DNA of 64,000 nt from assembly GCF_030464345.1 (NCBI RefSeq), contig NZ_VCYH01000003.1:124001-188000 (forward strand). The letters are read 5' to 3'. This document shows positions 12,128-61,455 of the stretch, piece by piece (position 1 is the stretch's first letter; each line of letters starts with the position of its first letter). The position numbers and the translations under genes were made by a program. The DNA comes from Methanoculleus frigidifontis. Its GTDB lineage: Archaea; Halobacteriota; Methanomicrobia; Methanomicrobiales; Methanoculleaceae. A model generated the notes under the pieces. It was not told the origin of the DNA and did no database searches. It saw only the letters and a program-made list of their open reading frames with translations.

Positions 12128-12829
12128 ATGGCAAATGGAATCACGCCGTCCGATATGACGGCACAGGTTGGAGAGATCAACAGTTTCATCGACAGCGCCA
12201 TCGCATTTCTTCCGAATCTCATTCTGGCAATCATCATTCTTATTATCGGCTGGATAGTGGGACGAATTCTCGGGCGGATCACCGCAGAAATTCTCGACAG
12301 GCTCGGTGTCGACGACGCCCTCCGCAAGACCTCCGTCGGGACGTATATCGAGCGTTCGACGATGAACATATCGCGGCTCTTTGACCTCATCGTCCGCTGG
12401 TTCATCTACCTGATCGCAATCCTGGCAGCGGTCGGCGTGCTCGAGATCGAAGCCCTGACGGCAGCAGTCGGCACAATCCTCGCATACATCCCGAACGTCG
12501 TGGCATTCCTCCTGATCCTGATCGTCGGGTTCATCGTCGTCGACTGGGTACTCGATTTCATCAGCAGCACCGGCGAGCGGCACCAGGTCGAGTACATGGG
12601 TCTTGTCACCATGCTGCTGCGGGCATTCTTCTACTTCATCATCGTGATCCTCGCCCTCGAGCAGCTCCTGCTCGACCTTTCGATCATCTACGTCTTCGTC
12701 GTCCCGATCGCCTGGGGTGTCGGCATCGGCATCGGTGCGGCGATCGCTATCATCGTCGGGTTCGGCCTCAAAGACCAGGCGCCCGAGATCATGGACAATC
12801 TCCAGGGCAGGATGAAGAAAAAAGAGTAA
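12128..12829 (+). CDS. MscS-like/TM-helix membrane protein
   Basis: The 233-residue protein has an N-terminal helix with the conserved TM-helix pattern (FLPNLILAIIILIIGWIVG at about 28-46, then RILGR) and three further pairs of helices. It ends in a glycine-rich helix and a basic KKKE tail. The pattern is that of short conserved-TM-helix proteins related to MscS channels but lacking the large cytoplasmic beta/alpha domain. A role in osmotic stress or channel formation is inferred from the family. A poly-T run follows the stop. Confidence 0.8.
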   Translation: MANGITPSDMTAQVGEINSFIDSAIAFLPNLILAIIILIIGWIVGRILGRITAEILDRLGVDDALRKTSVGTYIERSTMNISRLFDLIVRWFIYLIAILAAVGVLEIEALTAAVGTILAYIPNVVAFLLILIVGFIVVDWVLDFISSTGERHQVEYMGLVTMLLRAFFYFIIVILALEQLLLDLSIIYVFVVPIAWGVGIGIGAAIAIIVGFGLKDQAPEIMDNLQGRMKKKE

Positions 12830-53785: not shown

Positions 53786-54325
53786 ATGAACCTCTCGGGA
53801 GCAGTCATCTGGCTGCGGCAGGCTGCAGAGGCGCTGGCGTTTATCATGGTACTTTCCGTGCTCCTGCCGCTCCTCTTCGGCTCCGCGGCGGGTATCCCGG
53901 CCGGGCGGGTGCTGACGCTGGTCGGTTCCACCGTCATCCTGCAGGCGAACGGCGCATTTACAGGGGCGGGGCTTGGGATGGAGCCCTGGGAGATCCTGGT
54001 GATCATGACCCTGGTGGCGCTCGGGGCGGTTCTCGGGATCTTTGCGATCTGCGACACCTTCGCCCTGACTTCGAAGCGGGTTCGCACCTTCCTGGAGAAG
54101 GCCGAAAAGAGCATGCAGAAATTTCCCTGGGTATCGAAGTACGGGGCTGTTTCGCTCATCGTTCTCCCTGCACTGCCGGTAATCGGCCTCTACGCCAGCG
54201 TCGTGATAGCCTGGATTCTCCGGTGGAACCGATTCGAATCGGTTCTCTTCATCACCATCGGTTGGATTGGGGCGGTTATCTTTGTCCTCCTGCTCGCCTT
54301 TGGGTTTATCAGTCTCGTCTTTTGA
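53786..54325 (+). CDS. Small multidrug export/DedA-like membrane protein (COG2426-type)
   Basis: The 179-residue protein has an N-terminal helix, two central helices in re-entrant style (about 65-90) and a C-terminal pair with LPALPVIGLYASVVIAWILRW. The pattern fits the small multidrug-export protein family. Ligand unknown. It ends 17 bases past the 3' end of the convergent transposase fragment. Confidence 0.75.
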   Translation: MNLSGAVIWLRQAAEALAFIMVLSVLLPLLFGSAAGIPAGRVLTLVGSTVILQANGAFTGAGLGMEPWEILVIMTLVALGAVLGIFAICDTFALTSKRVRTFLEKAEKSMQKFPWVSKYGAVSLIVLPALPVIGLYASVVIAWILRWNRFESVLFITIGWIGAVIFVLLLAFGFISLVF

Positions 54326-54683
54326 GGGGTGCGGCATCGGCGCCGCGGCGTGGCGGCCGTCGTCCGGGCAGGGGCGTTTGGTTAAGCAATACCACCTTGG
54401 CGATCCAGGCGGCATCGACTTTGTCTGTCTTCTTGTGGGAGAGCGCCTTGATCTCCCGGGCATTCCCGACGATCACCGGGATTTCCCCCGCAAACAGGTC
54501 GTAGACCTGCACCCGGTAGTCGCTGGTGGATTCGCAGGCCACAACCTCGCAGCCGTGATAGAGAACCCGGTCCTTCAGGGCAAACAGATCAGCCTGCGTC
54601 CGGCTGAACTGCTGTTCCACCGTTGTGCCGTCCTGATCGGTAACAGCAGCGAGGATGAACGTTTTGTGGCTATCCAAACCCAC
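54309..54683 (-). pseudogene. IS110 family transposase, N-terminal stump
   Basis: The 124 codons match the DEDD RuvC-like N-terminal domain of IS110 transposases: GLDSHKT (first Asp), ACESTSDY (Glu) and KTDKVDAAWIAK (two Asp). The frame then ends in an Arg/Pro-rich tail and stops; the remaining two-thirds of the enzyme, with its Ser-type C-terminal domain, is missing. An upstream ATG (54700) is put out of frame by one base in an A5 run. So the element is dead at both ends. IS110 elements lack long terminal repeats, and none are seen. Confidence 0.8.
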
Positions 54684-54998
54684 AGGCTTTTTCTCTCATA
54701 CGTCATCACACTCGGGTGTGGACAGAGGAACTGCCTCGAAGGTTACTTTCGCGTCCGTGTTCGCAGACACAGTATGACCCTGGCAAAATGCGTTAGTTTG
54801 GGACGCAGGATCCGGATCCTAAAATCTCTTCAACCTCCCCTGCCCACGTCCTCTGCTCAGGCTGCACCAAGAAGAGTGTTGTCATCGGTCGAGCCTGTGG
54901 CCGAGACGCCTCATGGCCGTTTGGGATGAACGTATCAGAACAGGGGTTCCAAACCATTATATATCCATGCGGATATGCCCCCAACAAAGGTGATGAGT
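54684..54998. other. Region upstream of the IS110 stump and DUF6325 gene
   Basis: No gene in about 315 bases. The part next to the transposase may be the element's left end. A CATTATATATCC element at 54954-54965 is a convincing TATA box for the DUF6325 gene at 54999. Confidence 0.45.
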
Positions 54999-55451
54999 AT
55001 GGCAGAAACTGTTGGCAGAGTCATGGGTCCCGTGGACTTCCTTATCGTGAAGTTTCCCGGGAACAAATTCAGTGGGAAGATTGCCCCGGAGCTCGCCCGC
55101 CTGGAACAGAACGGTATCATTCGCGTGATGGACTTCGTCTTTGTCATGAAGGACGAGACAGGGAAACTGGTGAATGTCGAGACCGATAGTCTGGAGGGAG
55201 AGGTGGGCGCTGCCTATCGCGAGGTGGCCCGTCGCACGGACGAATGGTTCACCGAGGACGATATCGAGGCCTTCACGGAGAATCTCCCAAAGAACAGCTC
55301 GGGGCTGCTCCTGCTCGTCGAGAACCTCTGGGCCATCCGGTTCAAGGAGGCGTTGATGGACGCGGATGTCGAACTGGTCGAGATGGGAAGGATTCCACCG
55401 GAGACGATTGCGAAAGTTAAGGTGTCAGTGAAGGCAGCACCGGGGGCCTAA
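54999..55451 (+). CDS. DUF6325 family protein
   Basis: The 150-residue protein (GPVDFLIVKFPGNKFSGKIAPELARL; GIIRVMDFVFVMKDETG; PKNSSGLLLLVENLWAIRFKEALMD) is a paralogue of the gene at 49680 but lacks its hydrophobic stretch. The ATG at 54999 lies six bases after a GGTGA site and aligns with the paralogue's start (MAETVG versus MAEVVY). It is followed after two bases by a SHOCT-domain gene, probably one operon. Confidence 0.82.
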   Translation: MAETVGRVMGPVDFLIVKFPGNKFSGKIAPELARLEQNGIIRVMDFVFVMKDETGKLVNVETDSLEGEVGAAYREVARRTDEWFTEDDIEAFTENLPKNSSGLLLLVENLWAIRFKEALMDADVELVEMGRIPPETIAKVKVSVKAAPGA

Positions 55452-55453
55452 AG

Positions 55454-55678
55454 ATGAGAGGAAGAGGGTTGGCGCTCGCTGCAGGGTACCGGATGGGGCA
55501 GCGGCAGGCGGAGGAACAGAGGGCACCGGAAGAGGCATACAGGCAGCAGCCTGCGCAGGCGGCTGCGCCGCCCAAGGAGGACGTCATCGCACAGATCGAA
55601 AAACTGTCCGAGCTGCACCAGTCAGGCGCCCTGACCGACGAGGAGTACGCGGCCGCGAAGAGGAAGCTCCTGGAATAA
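55454..55678 (+). CDS. SHOCT domain protein
   Basis: The 74-residue protein has a Gln/Ala-rich N-terminal segment and a C-terminal SHOCT domain (about 45-74: IAQIEKLSELHQSGALTDEEYAAAKRKLLE), a short oligomerisation module. It is coupled to the DUF6325 gene with a two-base gap. SHOCT proteins of this size probably self-associate or bind the partner. Confidence 0.88.
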   Translation: MRGRGLALAAGYRMGQRQAEEQRAPEEAYRQQPAQAAAPPKEDVIAQIEKLSELHQSGALTDEEYAAAKRKLLE

Positions 55679-55717
55679 TCTCGTCAAACCCGTCCCGGCT
55701 CCGGTTCCTCGGTACCG

Positions 55718-56008
55718 ATGGGCGGCACCATCGCTTCGTCGTATAGAGGCGCCTACCAGCCGGTGCTCCTGCCGGTGAACGCGACCGTCTCGATCCCACT
55801 CACCGTGGTGCAAAACGGCGACGCCAACGAGGACAACCGGGTTTCGCTCTACGGCGCCGTCTATACTGCCCGGCATACCATCGGGCTGGAGGGTTGCCCG
55901 ATGACGGAGAGCACCGGCGAGGTTTCCGGTGATGGGGAACTGTCAATCCACGATGCGATGTATCTCGCAAAGCACGTGCTGGCGATTCACGGTTTTGAGC
56001 TGCATTGA
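55718..56008 (+). pseudogene. Truncated dockerin-type C-terminus of a surface protein
   Basis: The open frame encodes the end of a surface protein: an Ig-like strand (VLLPVNATVSIPLTVVQ) followed by two dockerin type I calcium-binding repeats (GDANEDNRVSLYGAVYTAR and GDGELSIHDAMYLAKHVL). The first repeat has lost a typical glycine and aspartate. The start of the protein is missing, there is no signal peptide and no ribosome-binding site, so it is a 5'-truncated remnant. In methanogens such domains mark large secreted proteins. Confidence 0.7.
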
Positions 56009-56192: not shown

Positions 56193-58022
56193 TTACCGGG
56201 CGGCAACCGCGACCGGTTCCGCCCGTCCCCGTTTCTCCTCCCCGGCATGATCGATCGCCCAGGCTGCAAGCACGTGCGAAAGATGCGTCAGCGCCTGCGG
56301 GAAGTTGCCGAGCATCACCCGGCCGACCCCGTCGATCTCCTCCGAAAAGAGCCCGAGCGGGCTTGCCGCCCGATAGGCCCGTGCATACCAGTCCCGGGCG
56401 CTGCCGAGGTCTCCCTGGTTCGCCTTCACCGTCGCCATCCAGAAGCACGCCGGGAGGAACGCGCCTTCGCGGCCCGGCAGGTTGTCGTCGATGATGTAGC
56501 GCTGCAGGTAGCCCTCCTCATCGAGGGTCTCCTCGATATAGCGGACCGTGCCGGCGAACCGCTCGTGGTCGTAGTCGGTCACCCCGACGATCGGGAAGAG
56601 GAGCATTGCCACATCCGCATCGATGCGCTCCGTCATCTGGGTGTATGCCCCGATCTCCTCGCTGTAGCCTTCGGTGTTCACGTACTCCCAGATCTCGTCC
56701 CGGGCCTGCTCCCAGCGTTCCAGGGGTGCGGGAAATCCGTTCTCGGCCGCGATCTCGATCCCCCGCCGGACCGCCATGTAGGCCATCGCTTTTGAGAATA
56801 CCTGCTGGTAGTTCTCGCCCCGGATCTCCCAGATTCCGGCGTCGGGCCGCCGCCAGTTCGCGCAGACCCAGTCGACGAGCCGGCGGAGCGCCTCCCATAT
56901 CGCGGGGCCTTCGAATCCCCGCATCAGGTGCGGCGCCCGGTGAAAGCAGAGCATCACCTCGCCGTAGGTGTCGAGCTGGAACTGGTTGCCCGCCCCGTTC
57001 CCGACGTGGACGGGACGGGAGTGGCGGTAGCCCTCCGCATGATCGAGGTCGCGCTCCGCGACCTCCCGTCCGTGATCGACGGTGTAGAGGGGCTGGAGCC
57101 GTTCGGGAGGATCGCGCCGGAGGAGCGTTGCCAGCCACCGCCGGAACGCATCGGCCTCCTCGGTATACCCCGTCGACTCGAACGCCATCACCACGAAGAC
57201 CCCGTCGCGGAGCCAGACGTAGCGGTAGTCCCAGTTCCGCTCCCCGCCCGGCTGTTCGGGGAGCCCGAGCGTGGGGGCGGCGACGAAGGTGCCGGCTGGC
57301 TGGTACTGGATCAGTTTGAGCGAGAGGAGGCTGCGGAGGACGTCGCCACGGTGCTCGCCGGCATACGTGCAGCGGCCCGACCACTCCCGCCAGTACGCCC
57401 GGGTTGCCGTGAGGAGGCGCTCGGCATACCCGCGGGGATCGGGGCACTTTGCCCCGTCGCCGTAGGCGAGGACGAAGGCGTGGACGTCGCCGTCTCTGAA
57501 CCGGTTCGTCGCGTCGGCCCGCCCGTCCCCGAGCTCCATCGGCGCCGTCGCAAAGAGCCGGAGGGTTTCGCCGTCGCCACGGGCAACGATACCCTCCCCG
57601 TCCTGCTCCAGCGTCGGCAGCACCTCGCCGTACCGGAATGCCGGAGCGAACGTGGCGGTGACGTCGATAGGAAGGCCGCTCGAGGAGACCAGCCGGATCA
57701 GGAGGGGAGCCCCGTTCCGCGGGTAGGGCATGAACGTCGTGACCCGGACGGTGGCGTCGGCCGTCCCGAGGTCAGAGACGAGAATGTTCGTCCCCTCCTC
57801 GTAGTACGAGGCTATCTTGTGGTGCACGGGAAGCCCGGTCGCGAAGTAGCCGCCGTTTGGGGCGTCGATGAGACGGGCAAAGACGGCCGGGGCGTCGAAC
57901 CGCTCCGGGCACCACCACTCTACGACCCCTTCGTCGGTGACGAGCGCAGCGGTCTGCCCGTCCCCGACGATGCCGATCTGGGAAAGGTCGGGATACGGCG
58001 TCAGCGTGAGTGGCCGGATCAT
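56193..58022 (-). CDS. GH15 glucoamylase/trehalase-type glycoside hydrolase
   Basis: The 609-residue protein has an N-terminal trehalase-like beta domain (about 1-200, YPDLSQIGIVGDGQTAALV) and a GH15 (alpha/alpha)6 catalytic domain (about 225-590) with RNWDYRYVWLRD at 262-273 and the acid/base region GIWEIRGENYQ near 400. Archaeal members hydrolyse trehalose or malto-oligosaccharides in the cytosol. Its ATG overlaps the stop of a collapsed SDR gene as ATGA. A decayed copy of its first 25 codons lies at 59440-59519 after the intact SDR. Confidence 0.92.
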   Translation of the reverse strand: MIRPLTLTPYPDLSQIGIVGDGQTAALVTDEGVVEWWCPERFDAPAVFARLIDAPNGGYFATGLPVHHKIASYYEEGTNILVSDLGTADATVRVTTFMPYPRNGAPLLIRLVSSSGLPIDVTATFAPAFRYGEVLPTLEQDGEGIVARGDGETLRLFATAPMELGDGRADATNRFRDGDVHAFVLAYGDGAKCPDPRGYAERLLTATRAYWREWSGRCTYAGEHRGDVLRSLLSLKLIQYQPAGTFVAAPTLGLPEQPGGERNWDYRYVWLRDGVFVVMAFESTGYTEEADAFRRWLATLLRRDPPERLQPLYTVDHGREVAERDLDHAEGYRHSRPVHVGNGAGNQFQLDTYGEVMLCFHRAPHLMRGFEGPAIWEALRRLVDWVCANWRRPDAGIWEIRGENYQQVFSKAMAYMAVRRGIEIAAENGFPAPLERWEQARDEIWEYVNTEGYSEEIGAYTQMTERIDADVAMLLFPIVGVTDYDHERFAGTVRYIEETLDEEGYLQRYIIDDNLPGREGAFLPACFWMATVKANQGDLGSARDWYARAYRAASPLGLFSEEIDGVGRVMLGNFPQALTHLSHVLAAWAIDHAGEEKRGRAEPVAVAAR

Positions 58023-58258
58023 ACCTCCTGTCCCCTGCTCTGCATCAGCCCGCCGTCGACGGAGACCGTGGTGCCGGGTTCGTCGGCCACCCGGCGAAAG
58101 AGGTCTTCGACGCTCCCCGGGTCTTTCTGCTCGCGATCAGTAGGGACACTTGTCGCAGCATCTGCACCTCTCCAGGCGGACGCCACCGTGCTCGCATACC
58201 CGATACCGGAGCCCGGTCCGGTGACAGCTGCACCTTCACCTTCCAATCTTCCGGCCAT
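58019..58258 (-). pseudogene. Collapsed SDR gene
   Basis: The 79-codon frame has the N-terminus of the SDR at 59516 (MAGRLEGEGAAVTGPGSGIG), then VEDLFRRVADE from its middle, then GTTVSVDGGLMQ and the C-terminal end. Several in-frame deletions have removed about two-thirds of the gene, including the catalytic Tyr-x3-Lys. Start, stop and frame are kept, and the stop overlaps the GH15 start as it does in the intact pair. Confidence 0.75.
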
Positions 58259-58419
58259 AGTATCACCTGGTGGGCTCTGGAAACCCGATCGCACTTAAAA
58301 GTATGTGCGGAAGGCCGCCTTCAAGAATCCAAAACGCGGCGAGGAGCGGGAGTTTGAAGATTGAGACGCAGCACCCGGGCTCCGGCGACGTACTCCCGGA
58401 TCGGGGCGCATGTCCGACC

Positions 58420-58430
58420 GGTATATTAAT
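58420..58430 (+). promoter_or_regulatory. TATA box of the gnd gene
   Basis: A GTATATTAAT block lies about 37-47 bases before the ATG at 58467. Confidence 0.5.
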
Positions 58431-58466
58431 CACCGCTCCTCGCCACCCGGGCAGACGGTGACCGAC

Positions 58467-59417
58467 ATGGCAGGAAGCGATCTGCAGCTCGGGATCGTCG
58501 GGCTCGGCAAGATGGGAGGAAACCTCGCACTGCAGGCCGTCGAGAGGGGAATCGACGTCGTGGGAACCGCTCACCACAAAAAACCGGATCTCGAAGAGCA
58601 GGGAGTGACATTTGCTGAGAATTACCGGGATTTTGCAGCGTATCTCAAACCCCCGCGGGTGGTCTATCTCTCCGTCCCGGCTGGCCCGCCGGTTGACGAC
58701 GTTCTTGCGGAGCTGCTGCCGCACCTCGGCGTCGGCGACGTGGTGATGGACGGCGGCAACTCGTTCTACCTCGATTCCATGGCACGGGAGAAGGAGTGTG
58801 CGGAGAGGGGCATCCTCTTCCTCGACTGCGGCACGAGCGGCGGATACACGGGCGCCCGGCACGGGGCGTGCTTCATGGTCGGCGGGCCGGAAGAGGGCTA
58901 CCGGATCGCAGAACCCGTCCTCAGACGGCTCGCGGTTCCTGAAGGGCTGGTGCACACCGGAAAGCCCGGGAGCGGCCACTTCGTCAAACTCGTCCACAAC
59001 GGGATCGAGTTCGGGATGCTCCAGGCGATCGGCGAAGGCGTCTCGCTGATGCGGGGCTGCGGGCAGTTTGACCTCGATCTCCGCGCAATCTTCCACAACT
59101 GGGCGCACGGGTCGGTGATCCGGAGCTGGCTCGTCGAGCTGATGGAGCAGGGGCTCGGTGAGCGGAGCATCGAATCCATCGAGAGTTACGTTGAAGACAC
59201 CGGCGAGGTGAACTGGCTCGTGGAGAGCGCCATCCAGTGGGAGATACCTATCCCGGCCACGACGATCGCGATCATGGAGCTCTTCGAGTCCCGGGAGAAG
59301 GACAGCGACACCCATCGAGCGATCGCGCTCATGCGGCACGGCTTCGGCGGCCACCCCTTCGGCAAAGACGAGCATATTGCAGAGGAGCGGCGGGTGAGCC
59401 GTATCACGAAGATATGA
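58467..59417 (+). CDS. gnd: 6-phosphogluconate dehydrogenase, decarboxylating (short form)
   Basis: The 316-residue protein has the Rossmann motif GLGKMG at 12-17, the substrate/signature region DGGNSFYLDS near 98-107 and FLDCGTSGGYTGA near 122-134, and the catalytic lysine motif GHFVKLVHNGIE near 172-183. The length is that of the short (GntZ-like) bacterial/archaeal form. It converts 6-phosphogluconate to ribulose 5-phosphate. It lies between two copies of an SDR-GH15 segment. ATG at 58467 with GGTGA five bases upstream. Confidence 0.93.
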   Translation: MAGSDLQLGIVGLGKMGGNLALQAVERGIDVVGTAHHKKPDLEEQGVTFAENYRDFAAYLKPPRVVYLSVPAGPPVDDVLAELLPHLGVGDVVMDGGNSFYLDSMAREKECAERGILFLDCGTSGGYTGARHGACFMVGGPEEGYRIAEPVLRRLAVPEGLVHTGKPGSGHFVKLVHNGIEFGMLQAIGEGVSLMRGCGQFDLDLRAIFHNWAHGSVIRSWLVELMEQGLGERSIESIESYVEDTGEVNWLVESAIQWEIPIPATTIAIMELFESREKDSDTHRAIALMRHGFGGHPFGKDEHIAEERRVSRITKI

Positions 59418-59439
59418 GGGATTGCCTGCGGGAAGGTGC

Positions 59440-59519
59440 CGGCCACACCGCTGCGCCCGTCACGGATGATGCCGATCCGGCCCTGCCAGGGTACCGGGGA
59501 GCGTGAGCGGCCGGATCAT
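59440..59519 (-). pseudogene. Fragment of a GH15 gene 5' end
   Basis: Reading on the minus strand, an ATG at 59519 overlaps the SDR stop exactly as in the other copy, and the DNA (ATGATCCGGCC-CTCACGCT; GATCGGCATC; GACGGGC) matches the first 80 bases of the intact GH15 gene at 58022. Small insertions and deletions have destroyed the frame. The rest of the gene is absent. Confidence 0.7.
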
Positions 59520-60295
59520 GCCCCCTGTCCCTGGTTCTGCATCAGCCCGCCGTCGACGTAGACCGTGGTGCCGTGGATGTAGTCCGCCTCTCGTGATGCG
59601 AGGAAGACCGCTACTTTCGCGATCTCCTCCGGCTCGGCCGCCCGTTTCTGGGGTATCGAAGCTACCTGTTCCCTGAGGATCTCCGGGTCGTCGATCGCAG
59701 GCTGGTTGAACGGCGTCAGCACCATCCCGGGTGCGATGTTCTTGACGGTGATGTTGCTCTCGGCGAGCTCGAGCGCCAGGCACCGGGTGAGGTTCCGGAG
59801 AGCGCCTTTGGCCGCACAGTAGCCTGACGCCCCGGCCCGCGGGATCTCCTGGTGGACGCTCGTGATGTTGATGATGGTGCCGTGCAGGTCGCTCCCGGCA
59901 AGGCCGCGGATAAACTCCCGGGCGCAGTAAAACGGCCCATACAGGTTCGTCCGGATCTCGTCGTCCCAGTCTTCGAGCGGCATATCCCCGACGTGCTTGC
60001 CGGTAGAGTCGATCCCGGCGTCGTTGACGAGGATCGTCGGCGTGCCGAGTTCTTCGGCCACCCGGCGGAAGAGGTCCTCGACGCTTTTCGGGTCTCTCTG
60101 GTCGAGATTCACGAGCAGGGCACGGCGGCCGAGGTCGCCGACCTCCTTTGCCGTTCTCTCCGCTCCTGCGACATCCTCGTGGATGGTCACCGCCACATCC
60201 GCACCTTCACGGGCGAACGCCACCGCAGTCGCGTGCCCGATCCCGGAGTCCGATCCGGTGACGACGGCTATCTCGCCTTCCAGTCTTCCGGCCAT
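59516..60295 (-). CDS. Short-chain dehydrogenase/reductase
   Basis: The 259-residue protein has the classic SDR motifs: TGSDSGIG at 13-20, VNDAGI near 90-95 and the catalytic Ser...YCAAK near 152-170. It resembles glucose dehydrogenase-type SDRs; the substrate is not set by sequence. The ATG at 60295 is also found at the collapsed copy (58258), and the two share an upstream promoter segment (CGATCG-ACTTAA...TATGTGCGG). The gene and the following GH15 fragment form the mirror of the 58019-58258/GH15 pair. Confidence 0.9.
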   Translation of the reverse strand: MAGRLEGEIAVVTGSDSGIGHATAVAFAREGADVAVTIHEDVAGAERTAKEVGDLGRRALLVNLDQRDPKSVEDLFRRVAEELGTPTILVNDAGIDSTGKHVGDMPLEDWDDEIRTNLYGPFYCAREFIRGLAGSDLHGTIINITSVHQEIPRAGASGYCAAKGALRNLTRCLALELAESNITVKNIAPGMVLTPFNQPAIDDPEILREQVASIPQKRAAEPEEIAKVAVFLASREADYIHGTTVYVDGGLMQNQGQGA

Positions 60296-60372
60296 AGAAT
60301 CACCGGGGGGCATGGACGGTCCGATCGTACTTAAGGATATGTGCGGCGGTGCCGGGCTGAGTCCGTCCGGCA

Positions 60373-60639: not shown

Positions 60640-61455
60640 AGAACCGGCGCGGATCGGCCGATTCATCCCGACCGTCGGGCATGCTCGCTCGCTGCCCGGA
60701 GGTCCGCATAGTGCTGAAGGTGCCCGGGATATGGGGCTATCGCAATGACTGCTCTCTTCTCGGGAGGAGAGCGGAGCGACCGGAGAGAGCGGGCGGAGGT
60801 GGGGTAAACGCACCCGGCCAGGCAGTAGAAGATGTGGCTGGTATGTCGCATTCAAGAAATGGTGCAACGGCCAGAGACAGGAAGGTATTCCACTCCAGGC
60901 CGTTTTACGCGGCCTTCTGCAGCGTGAACCGGAAGGCCGCCCCCCTCCTCCGGCCGGCCGGGAATCCGATCCTCGACTCATACTCTGCCGCCGTAGCGCT
61001 CGACCACGATCTGACCCCGGGAACGTTCGCTACAATCATAAAAGAACGCCGGTTTACCCGTTTTTCAGGACGGATGAAAGGGTGTCCCGGGCACCGGACA
61101 GATCGGGGGGACAGCAACTGCTCGAGCGATCTTCAAGAGGTCTTCGCTCCATAGTTCACGACGAAACGGCGAAGCCTGGAAGAGCAAACGCTGCATGAAT
61201 TTTCCTTCTGCTCCTGGTCTTACCGTCCGCCCTGCGAACAGGCAGCGATGAGCGTTTGCCGTTCATTGACCGGGCACACTGAAAAATCCGTTGTTTTTTA
61301 CGTATCGCTCTTGAGCTGGCATCCACTTCGTTTATTCTATTCAATTCGTATGAATGACGCAGAGATTCAATTTCAGCACGTTTATTACGTAGCAACAGCA
61401 AAAAAATGTGTAGTAAACAAAAAAATCTGCATTAAAGTAAAAAATATTGTCACGC
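60640..61455. other. Long non-coding region before the FmdE-like gene
   Basis: No intact gene in about 800 bases. It contains the histidine kinase fragment at 60905-61020, then an AT-rich part (61270-61450) with TTTATTACGTAG, repeated A runs and a TAAAGTAAAAAATATT block near 61435, likely the promoter of the downstream operon. Confidence 0.45.
60905..61025 (-). pseudogene. Fragment of a histidine kinase C-terminus
   Basis: On the minus strand the DNA encodes IVVERYGG, then after a frameshift GFPAGRRRGAAFRFTLQKAA. This matches the end of the kinase at 29049 (VLVERYGGSIRADD ... GRPEEGAAFRFTLPK). Only the last ATPase segment survives. Confidence 0.6.

Follow-up and report, generated by a model that had tools for sequence, protein, structure and literature searches.

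Mosaic ancestry of a split SDR-GH15-gnd region in Methanoculleus frigidifontis and recurrent erosion of its SDR gene

In archaea, genes that overlap by the four nucleotides ATGA can be translationally coupled (PMC6728339, PMC10666635), and in Haloferax volcanii the downstream gene of such a pair was found to be no longer translated once stops had been placed in the upstream one (PMC6728339). The short-chain dehydrogenase (SDR) stubs described here resemble these coupled pairs in their 4-nt stop/start overlap, their open upstream frame and the Shine-Dalgarno motif at the upstream start, but differ in that most of the upstream gene is gone and the length of what remains varies by genome. Two further known situations bear comparison with the locus as a whole. 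As in duplication-degeneration-complementation, two units each keep a different functional part; what is kept here, however, is whole operon genes rather than subfunctions, the copies are not sisters, and the SDR decays without a duplicate. As in a Campbell-type merodiploid, two partial direct copies flank a non-duplicated gene (gnd), with opposite parentage on the left and right and one novel junction, although no vector or mobile-element gene was found at that junction, the donor and the pre-integration state are unsampled, and both redundant halves have eroded. A literature search returned nothing on this gene cluster.

The window is the whole stretch of DNA that was analysed, 64,000 nucleotides from Methanoculleus frigidifontis (GCF_030464345.1, NZ_VCYH01000003.1, positions 124,001 to 188,000 of the forward strand; genome G000, with the cluster on contig C3). 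Read from the right on the minus strand, the cluster begins with an intact SDR gene of 259 aa (SDR_B, 59516-60295) and a relic of a glycoside hydrolase family 15 gene (GH15_B, 59424-59519); these are followed by gnd on the plus strand (58467-59417) and then, again on the minus strand, by the flank of SDR_A, the SDR_A stub (58019-58258) and an intact glucoamylase/trehalase-like GH15 gene of 609 aa (GH15_A, 56193-58022). The preliminary description of the region had paired a collapsed SDR with an intact GH15 in copy A, and an intact SDR with a GH15 fragment in copy B, and had reported an ATGA overlap and a similar promoter in both; all of this was borne out. The overlaps lie at 58019-58022 (SDR_A/GH15_A) and 59516-59519 (SDR_B/GH15_B), and the promoter-like CGCACATA..TTAAGT and the start region GGTGAT(A/T)CTATG are present upstream of both SDR starts. 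For SDR_A, the upstream signals occupy 58262-58310 on the minus strand by sequence match, with the promoter-like CACATACTTTTAAGT at about 58293-58307 and the Shine-Dalgarno motif GGTGAT at 58262-58267, while for SDR_B the promoter-like CGCACATATCCTTAAGT was matched at 60329-60346 (minus strand), with GGTGAT next, before the ATG. A Shine-Dalgarno-like AGGAGG stands directly before GH15_A, which may as a result have some translation initiation of its own. Copies A and B are 77-85% identical over their shared stretches, far above chance, and their difference of about 20% excludes a duplicate created during assembly as the source of the pattern.

The two damaged genes were not damaged alike. SDR_A measures 240 nt against 780 nt for SDR_B, with internal deletions that are in-frame relative to the latter, leaving a 79-codon stub that is still an open frame, a detail beyond the preliminary description. 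GH15_B retains some 28 N-terminal codons, in which a frameshift of 2 nt occurs near codon 7, and a C-terminal piece (59424-59442) that reads GTFPQA (GNFPQA in intact copies) and runs into the junction with gnd. Because both ends are kept, GH15_B is read as a once-complete gene that has lost its interior. Convergent with GH15_B, gnd is part of unit B.

At the protein level, GH15_A has a full-length GH15 catalytic domain (PF00723; residues 224-587 on profile positions 3-426/427, 207 bits against a cut-off of 22) and was assigned to the family on that basis; it also carries a TREH_N domain. In these nearly full-length features it resembles the archaeal GH15 trehalases TreH1 and TreH2 and the GH15 glucoamylases, but its scores fall far below the TreH equivalog cut-offs (309 bits against 820 for NF041084 and 238 against 1000 for NF041085), and its assignment as an archaeal TreH trehalase was rejected. 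SDR_B is a classical SDR (PF13561, 199 bits, and PF00106), with TGSDSGIG, NDAG, an Asn, Ser and YCAAK in one open gene; SDR_A has no Pfam match and lacks YxxxK, and so fails the same assignment. The gnd product scores 302.2 bits against a cut-off of 297.2 for TIGR00872, the NAD-type 6-phosphogluconate dehydrogenase.

Relatives were sought in 232 genomes of the order, and a search at class level returned the same 232. Among the matches listed, this GH15 was found at E < 1e-120 in five genomes: that of M. frigidifontis, that of a sister species (G037), UBA206 (G038), which belongs to another genus of the same family, and two genomes placed by kinship in another family, M17C-73-02 (G099, L071) and BL5_bin.5 (G098, L072), together designated f5. 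The next best GH15 matches listed were at most 39% identical, and more distant relatives may exist. At E < 1e-60, gnd was present in four of the 232 genomes, all of them GH15 carriers. The sister species has one SDR-GH15 pair, the single pair that had been sought in relatives, and its gnd lies elsewhere in the genome. In the f5 genomes the order is an SDR remnant, GH15 and a convergent gnd (SDR stub-GH15-><-gnd), then a second SDR. This order bears on the earlier statement that gnd lies between the two copies: the position is correct, but it does not reflect an insertion of gnd between them, since f5 has gnd directly 3' of GH15, joined to it by the junction sequence that is also seen in unit B. 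That GH15-gnd junction is common to the window and f5. At 59418-59424 the sequence ATCCCTCATATCTTCGTGATACGGCTCACCCGCCGCTCCTCTG is identical in the window and M17C-73-02, within 43 nt of identity between the two, and the junction is absent in the sister species.

The ancestry of each segment was then compared with the earlier proposal of a single in-lineage duplication of SDR-GH15(-gnd), followed by complementary loss that left a single functional set divided between two loci. Two tandem homologous units with one intact gene of each kind are indeed what such a history would leave. In the 5' part of the SDR, however, 15 quartet sites group SDR_A with BL5_bin.5 and SDR_B with the sister species, none group A with B, and one groups A with the sister species, although the gene is degenerate and only some 200 of its sites could be aligned. 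Maximum likelihood on the same part joined A to BL5_bin.5 with a bootstrap of 100 and rejected A+B (AU p=0.005). The SDR_A head thus belongs with f5, SDR_B belongs with the sister species, and A and B are rejected as sisters by their sequences. Only over the last ~60 nt of the SDR does the signal switch to A+B, at three sites, a point in favour of a duplication; in A the breakpoint (p=0.0012) falls after SDR codon ~70 and before the tail, and GH15_B is too decayed to type. GH15_A is of the sister type to its last codons: its nucleotide identity is 90.6% to the sister species and 85% to f5, 105 informative sites go with the former against 13 polarised sites with the latter, the resemblance holds throughout, and the C-terminus DHAGEEK is common to the sister species only. 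The first 94 nt of GH15_A were considered as a crossover site and discarded (1:3 vs 104:58, p=0.14, not significant).

Synonymous divergence told against the duplication as well. GH15_A and SDR_B, the latter also of sister type, have equal dS to the sister species (0.31), below all baseline genes (0.48-1.16 in 11 others; rpoB 0.59), values that are not expected from a vertical duplication. For gnd, which is of f5 type, dS was 0.36-0.39 to f5 and 0.62 to the sister species; since rpoB separates M. frigidifontis from f5 by 1.14-1.19, the cassette must have moved horizontally. The left of GH15_A, moreover, contains no second gnd or trace of one, and four genomes that have no second copy of the SDR show it eroded too, so complementary loss is as little supported as the single duplication. 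What stands of the earlier reading is two homologous units with one intact gene per kind, together with a single SDR-GH15 pair in a relative, and an origin by in-lineage duplication is considered improbable.

On the site counts, dS values and junction taken together, SDR_B and GH15_A, at the outside of the cluster, are sister-like, and what lies between them (gnd, the junction and the SDR_A head) is f5-like. The region is probably a mosaic in which two lineages of the same sugar-oxidation cassette are combined, with a separate, recurrent erosion of the SDR, rather than the product of duplication and reciprocal loss within one lineage. The route by which the mosaic formed is inferred. A resident, sister-like SDR-GH15 operon, now represented by SDR_B and GH15_A, would have taken up a foreign segment close to where SDR and GH15 meet, the foreign unit being an SDR(eroding)-GH15-><-gnd arrangement as in the f5 genomes. 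If the resident operon recombined by a Campbell-type single crossover with that unit, present as a circle or in tandem, the outcome would be, in order, resident SDR_B, the foreign GH15 3' end with gnd, a junction J, the foreign SDR_A head and resident GH15_A; the foreign GH15 (GH15_B) would afterwards have lost its interior. From a single crossover one would expect reciprocal hybrids, only one gnd and a new junction that joins the outer unit edges, and all three are seen in the window. The hybrids are SDR_B and GH15_A resembling the sister species and SDR_A and gnd resembling f5. The junction J (58405-58412, from blastn coordinates and sequences) joins the upstream flank of gnd to that of SDR_A; the 5' flank of SDR_A matches BL5_bin.5 up to window position 58408, and the two edges correspond by blastn to positions 12799 and 9444 of L072, at opposite ends of the unit there. 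The direction of transfer is likewise inferred, and neither a pre-integration state nor a circular unit was seen among the five GH15-carrying genomes. Shared nonsynonymous changes were examined as a sign that the decay of SDR_A had begun in the donor, and the idea was dropped (8:5 vs 37:43, p=0.38, not significant).

The same topology would arise from an old tandem array in a donor lineage, which the window keeps and of which one recombined unit came down to f5 and one to the sister species; the ancient paralogy would have been sorted by pop-out, with transfer following later. Pop-out would leave SDR_B-GH15_A, sister-like, and release SDR_A-GH15_B-gnd, f5-like, exactly as for integration. The low dS values would, however, still need horizontal transfer, and the pair of the sister species occupies a different site from the window cluster, a locus with CofG and TPR genes common to that species and UBA206; an old array is accordingly held to be unlikely. 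In both of those genomes, the GH15 locus lies next to CofG, TPR and CofH genes. The same locus in M. frigidifontis, between the CofG and TPR genes on contig C4, holds only a 153-nt GH15 relic (L156 6359-6511), and the place that gnd occupies in the sister species, between MFS transporter and nitroreductase genes, is closed on contig C6 (L155 5897-5999). Because the native GH15 site holds a relic and the gnd site is closed, the window cluster is regarded as a relocated or acquired set. It is not syntenic with the SDR-GH15 locus of the sister species, and the arrival of a sister-type pair on contig C3 is unexplained by the mosaic reading.

Several features were also recorded in the DNA around the cluster. 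To its left, a DUF6325 gene and the short gene that follows it (54934-55692) are 86-87% identical to both f5 genomes and have no match in the sister species; judging by this identity, the stretch is further DNA shared with f5. Beyond it, near the left side of the cluster, lies an N-terminal fragment of an IS110-family transposase (54309-54683, 124 aa). A dockerin-like C-terminal fragment of 96 aa (55718-56008), from which the rest of the protein is missing, is closest to the C-termini of large surface proteins of the sister species. It was considered as sister-type synteny to the left of GH15_A and set aside, as its best relatives in that species, at 71%, lie away from GH15, whose neighbour there reaches 60%. 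To the right, 60906-61013 (and 60722-60803) belongs to a dispersed repeat of about 100 nt, with more than 20 copies in M. frigidifontis (77-84%) and many in the sister species and in G001; the piece at 60722-60803 has 90% copies on contig C1.

Erosion of the SDR extends to all five genomes that carry this GH15, four of which (the sister species, UBA206, M17C-73-02 and BL5_bin.5) have neither a second copy nor a close intact SDR; among the genomes examined, the only close intact SDR is SDR_B of the window. Since these four single-copy genomes are eroded, SDR loss did not wait for a duplicate and GH15 does not need the SDR. The remnants are 79 codons long in SDR_A, 229 in the sister species, 129 in BL5_bin.5, 28 in M17C-73-02 and about 28 in UBA206, where the remnant is fused to GH15. 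In the sister species the stretch with the catalytic-type Asn has been deleted and a glycine motif carries a G to R change. GGTG or GGT is kept before the ATG of each remnant, and all four remnants that end in ATGA (SDR_A, the sister species, BL5_bin.5 and M17C-73-02) are open from the Shine-Dalgarno-preceded SDR start to the overlapping stop. At the fifth locus, in UBA206 (L073 9911-10004), one frame runs from the SDR start straight into GH15, and the ATG of GH15 itself is ACG; this is an apparent start-codon capture, with the SDR start the only plausible start for GH15.

These remnants suggest that, apart from the mosaic, the SDR upstream of GH15 is eroding in every lineage, mostly through in-frame internal deletions that spare the promoter, Shine-Dalgarno motif, start and ATGA, and that it may be shrinking into a leader open reading frame that delivers ribosomes to GH15. 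The remnant would most likely persist because GH15 is translated by ribosomes terminating on it. The alternative for the stubs is that they are plain pseudogenes, in frame by chance in GC-rich, stop-poor DNA, with ends kept as deletions there would destroy GH15 expression. When deletions were placed at random in intact SDR_B, a remnant open to the ATGA was left with a frequency of 0.33, 0.28 or 0.24 for one, two or three deletions, so that a single open stub is readily had by chance; for four out of four the joint probability is roughly 0.01, and weaker if a fusion also counts as success. The relatives are few and not all independent, and no clear constraint emerged on the stub codons, which would suit pseudogenes. 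The in-frame, stop-free state of all four ATGA remnants argues against them, as do the sole plausible GH15 start at the UBA206 locus and the frameshifted GH15_B relic, the last being as expected of the leader reading because no downstream gene is served. Plain pseudogenes are a possible but somewhat doubtful account. It is likewise only tentatively proposed that at least five archaeal lineages have, each on its own, been converting the SDR gene into a short leader with the sole role of bringing ribosomes to the overlapping gene downstream, and that in one lineage the start of the leader already serves as that of the downstream enzyme.

GH15 enzymes release glucose from trehalose or an alpha-glucan; that glucose could be oxidised by an SDR if it is of the glucose-dehydrogenase kind, and gnd oxidises 6-phosphogluconate. 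That four genomes have both GH15 and gnd would fit a glucose-oxidation route, and the pair hints at an unusual one in methanogens; rare in the order (five and four of 232 genomes, respectively), it moves between families. The SDR stubs of varied length before one GH15 would offer a natural series of what a coupled upstream gene must keep, namely promoter, start, frame and stop. Interspecies recombination may leave half-broken copies with the look of reciprocal loss although no function has been partitioned between them, which would provide a testable replacement for the duplicate-then-lose account.
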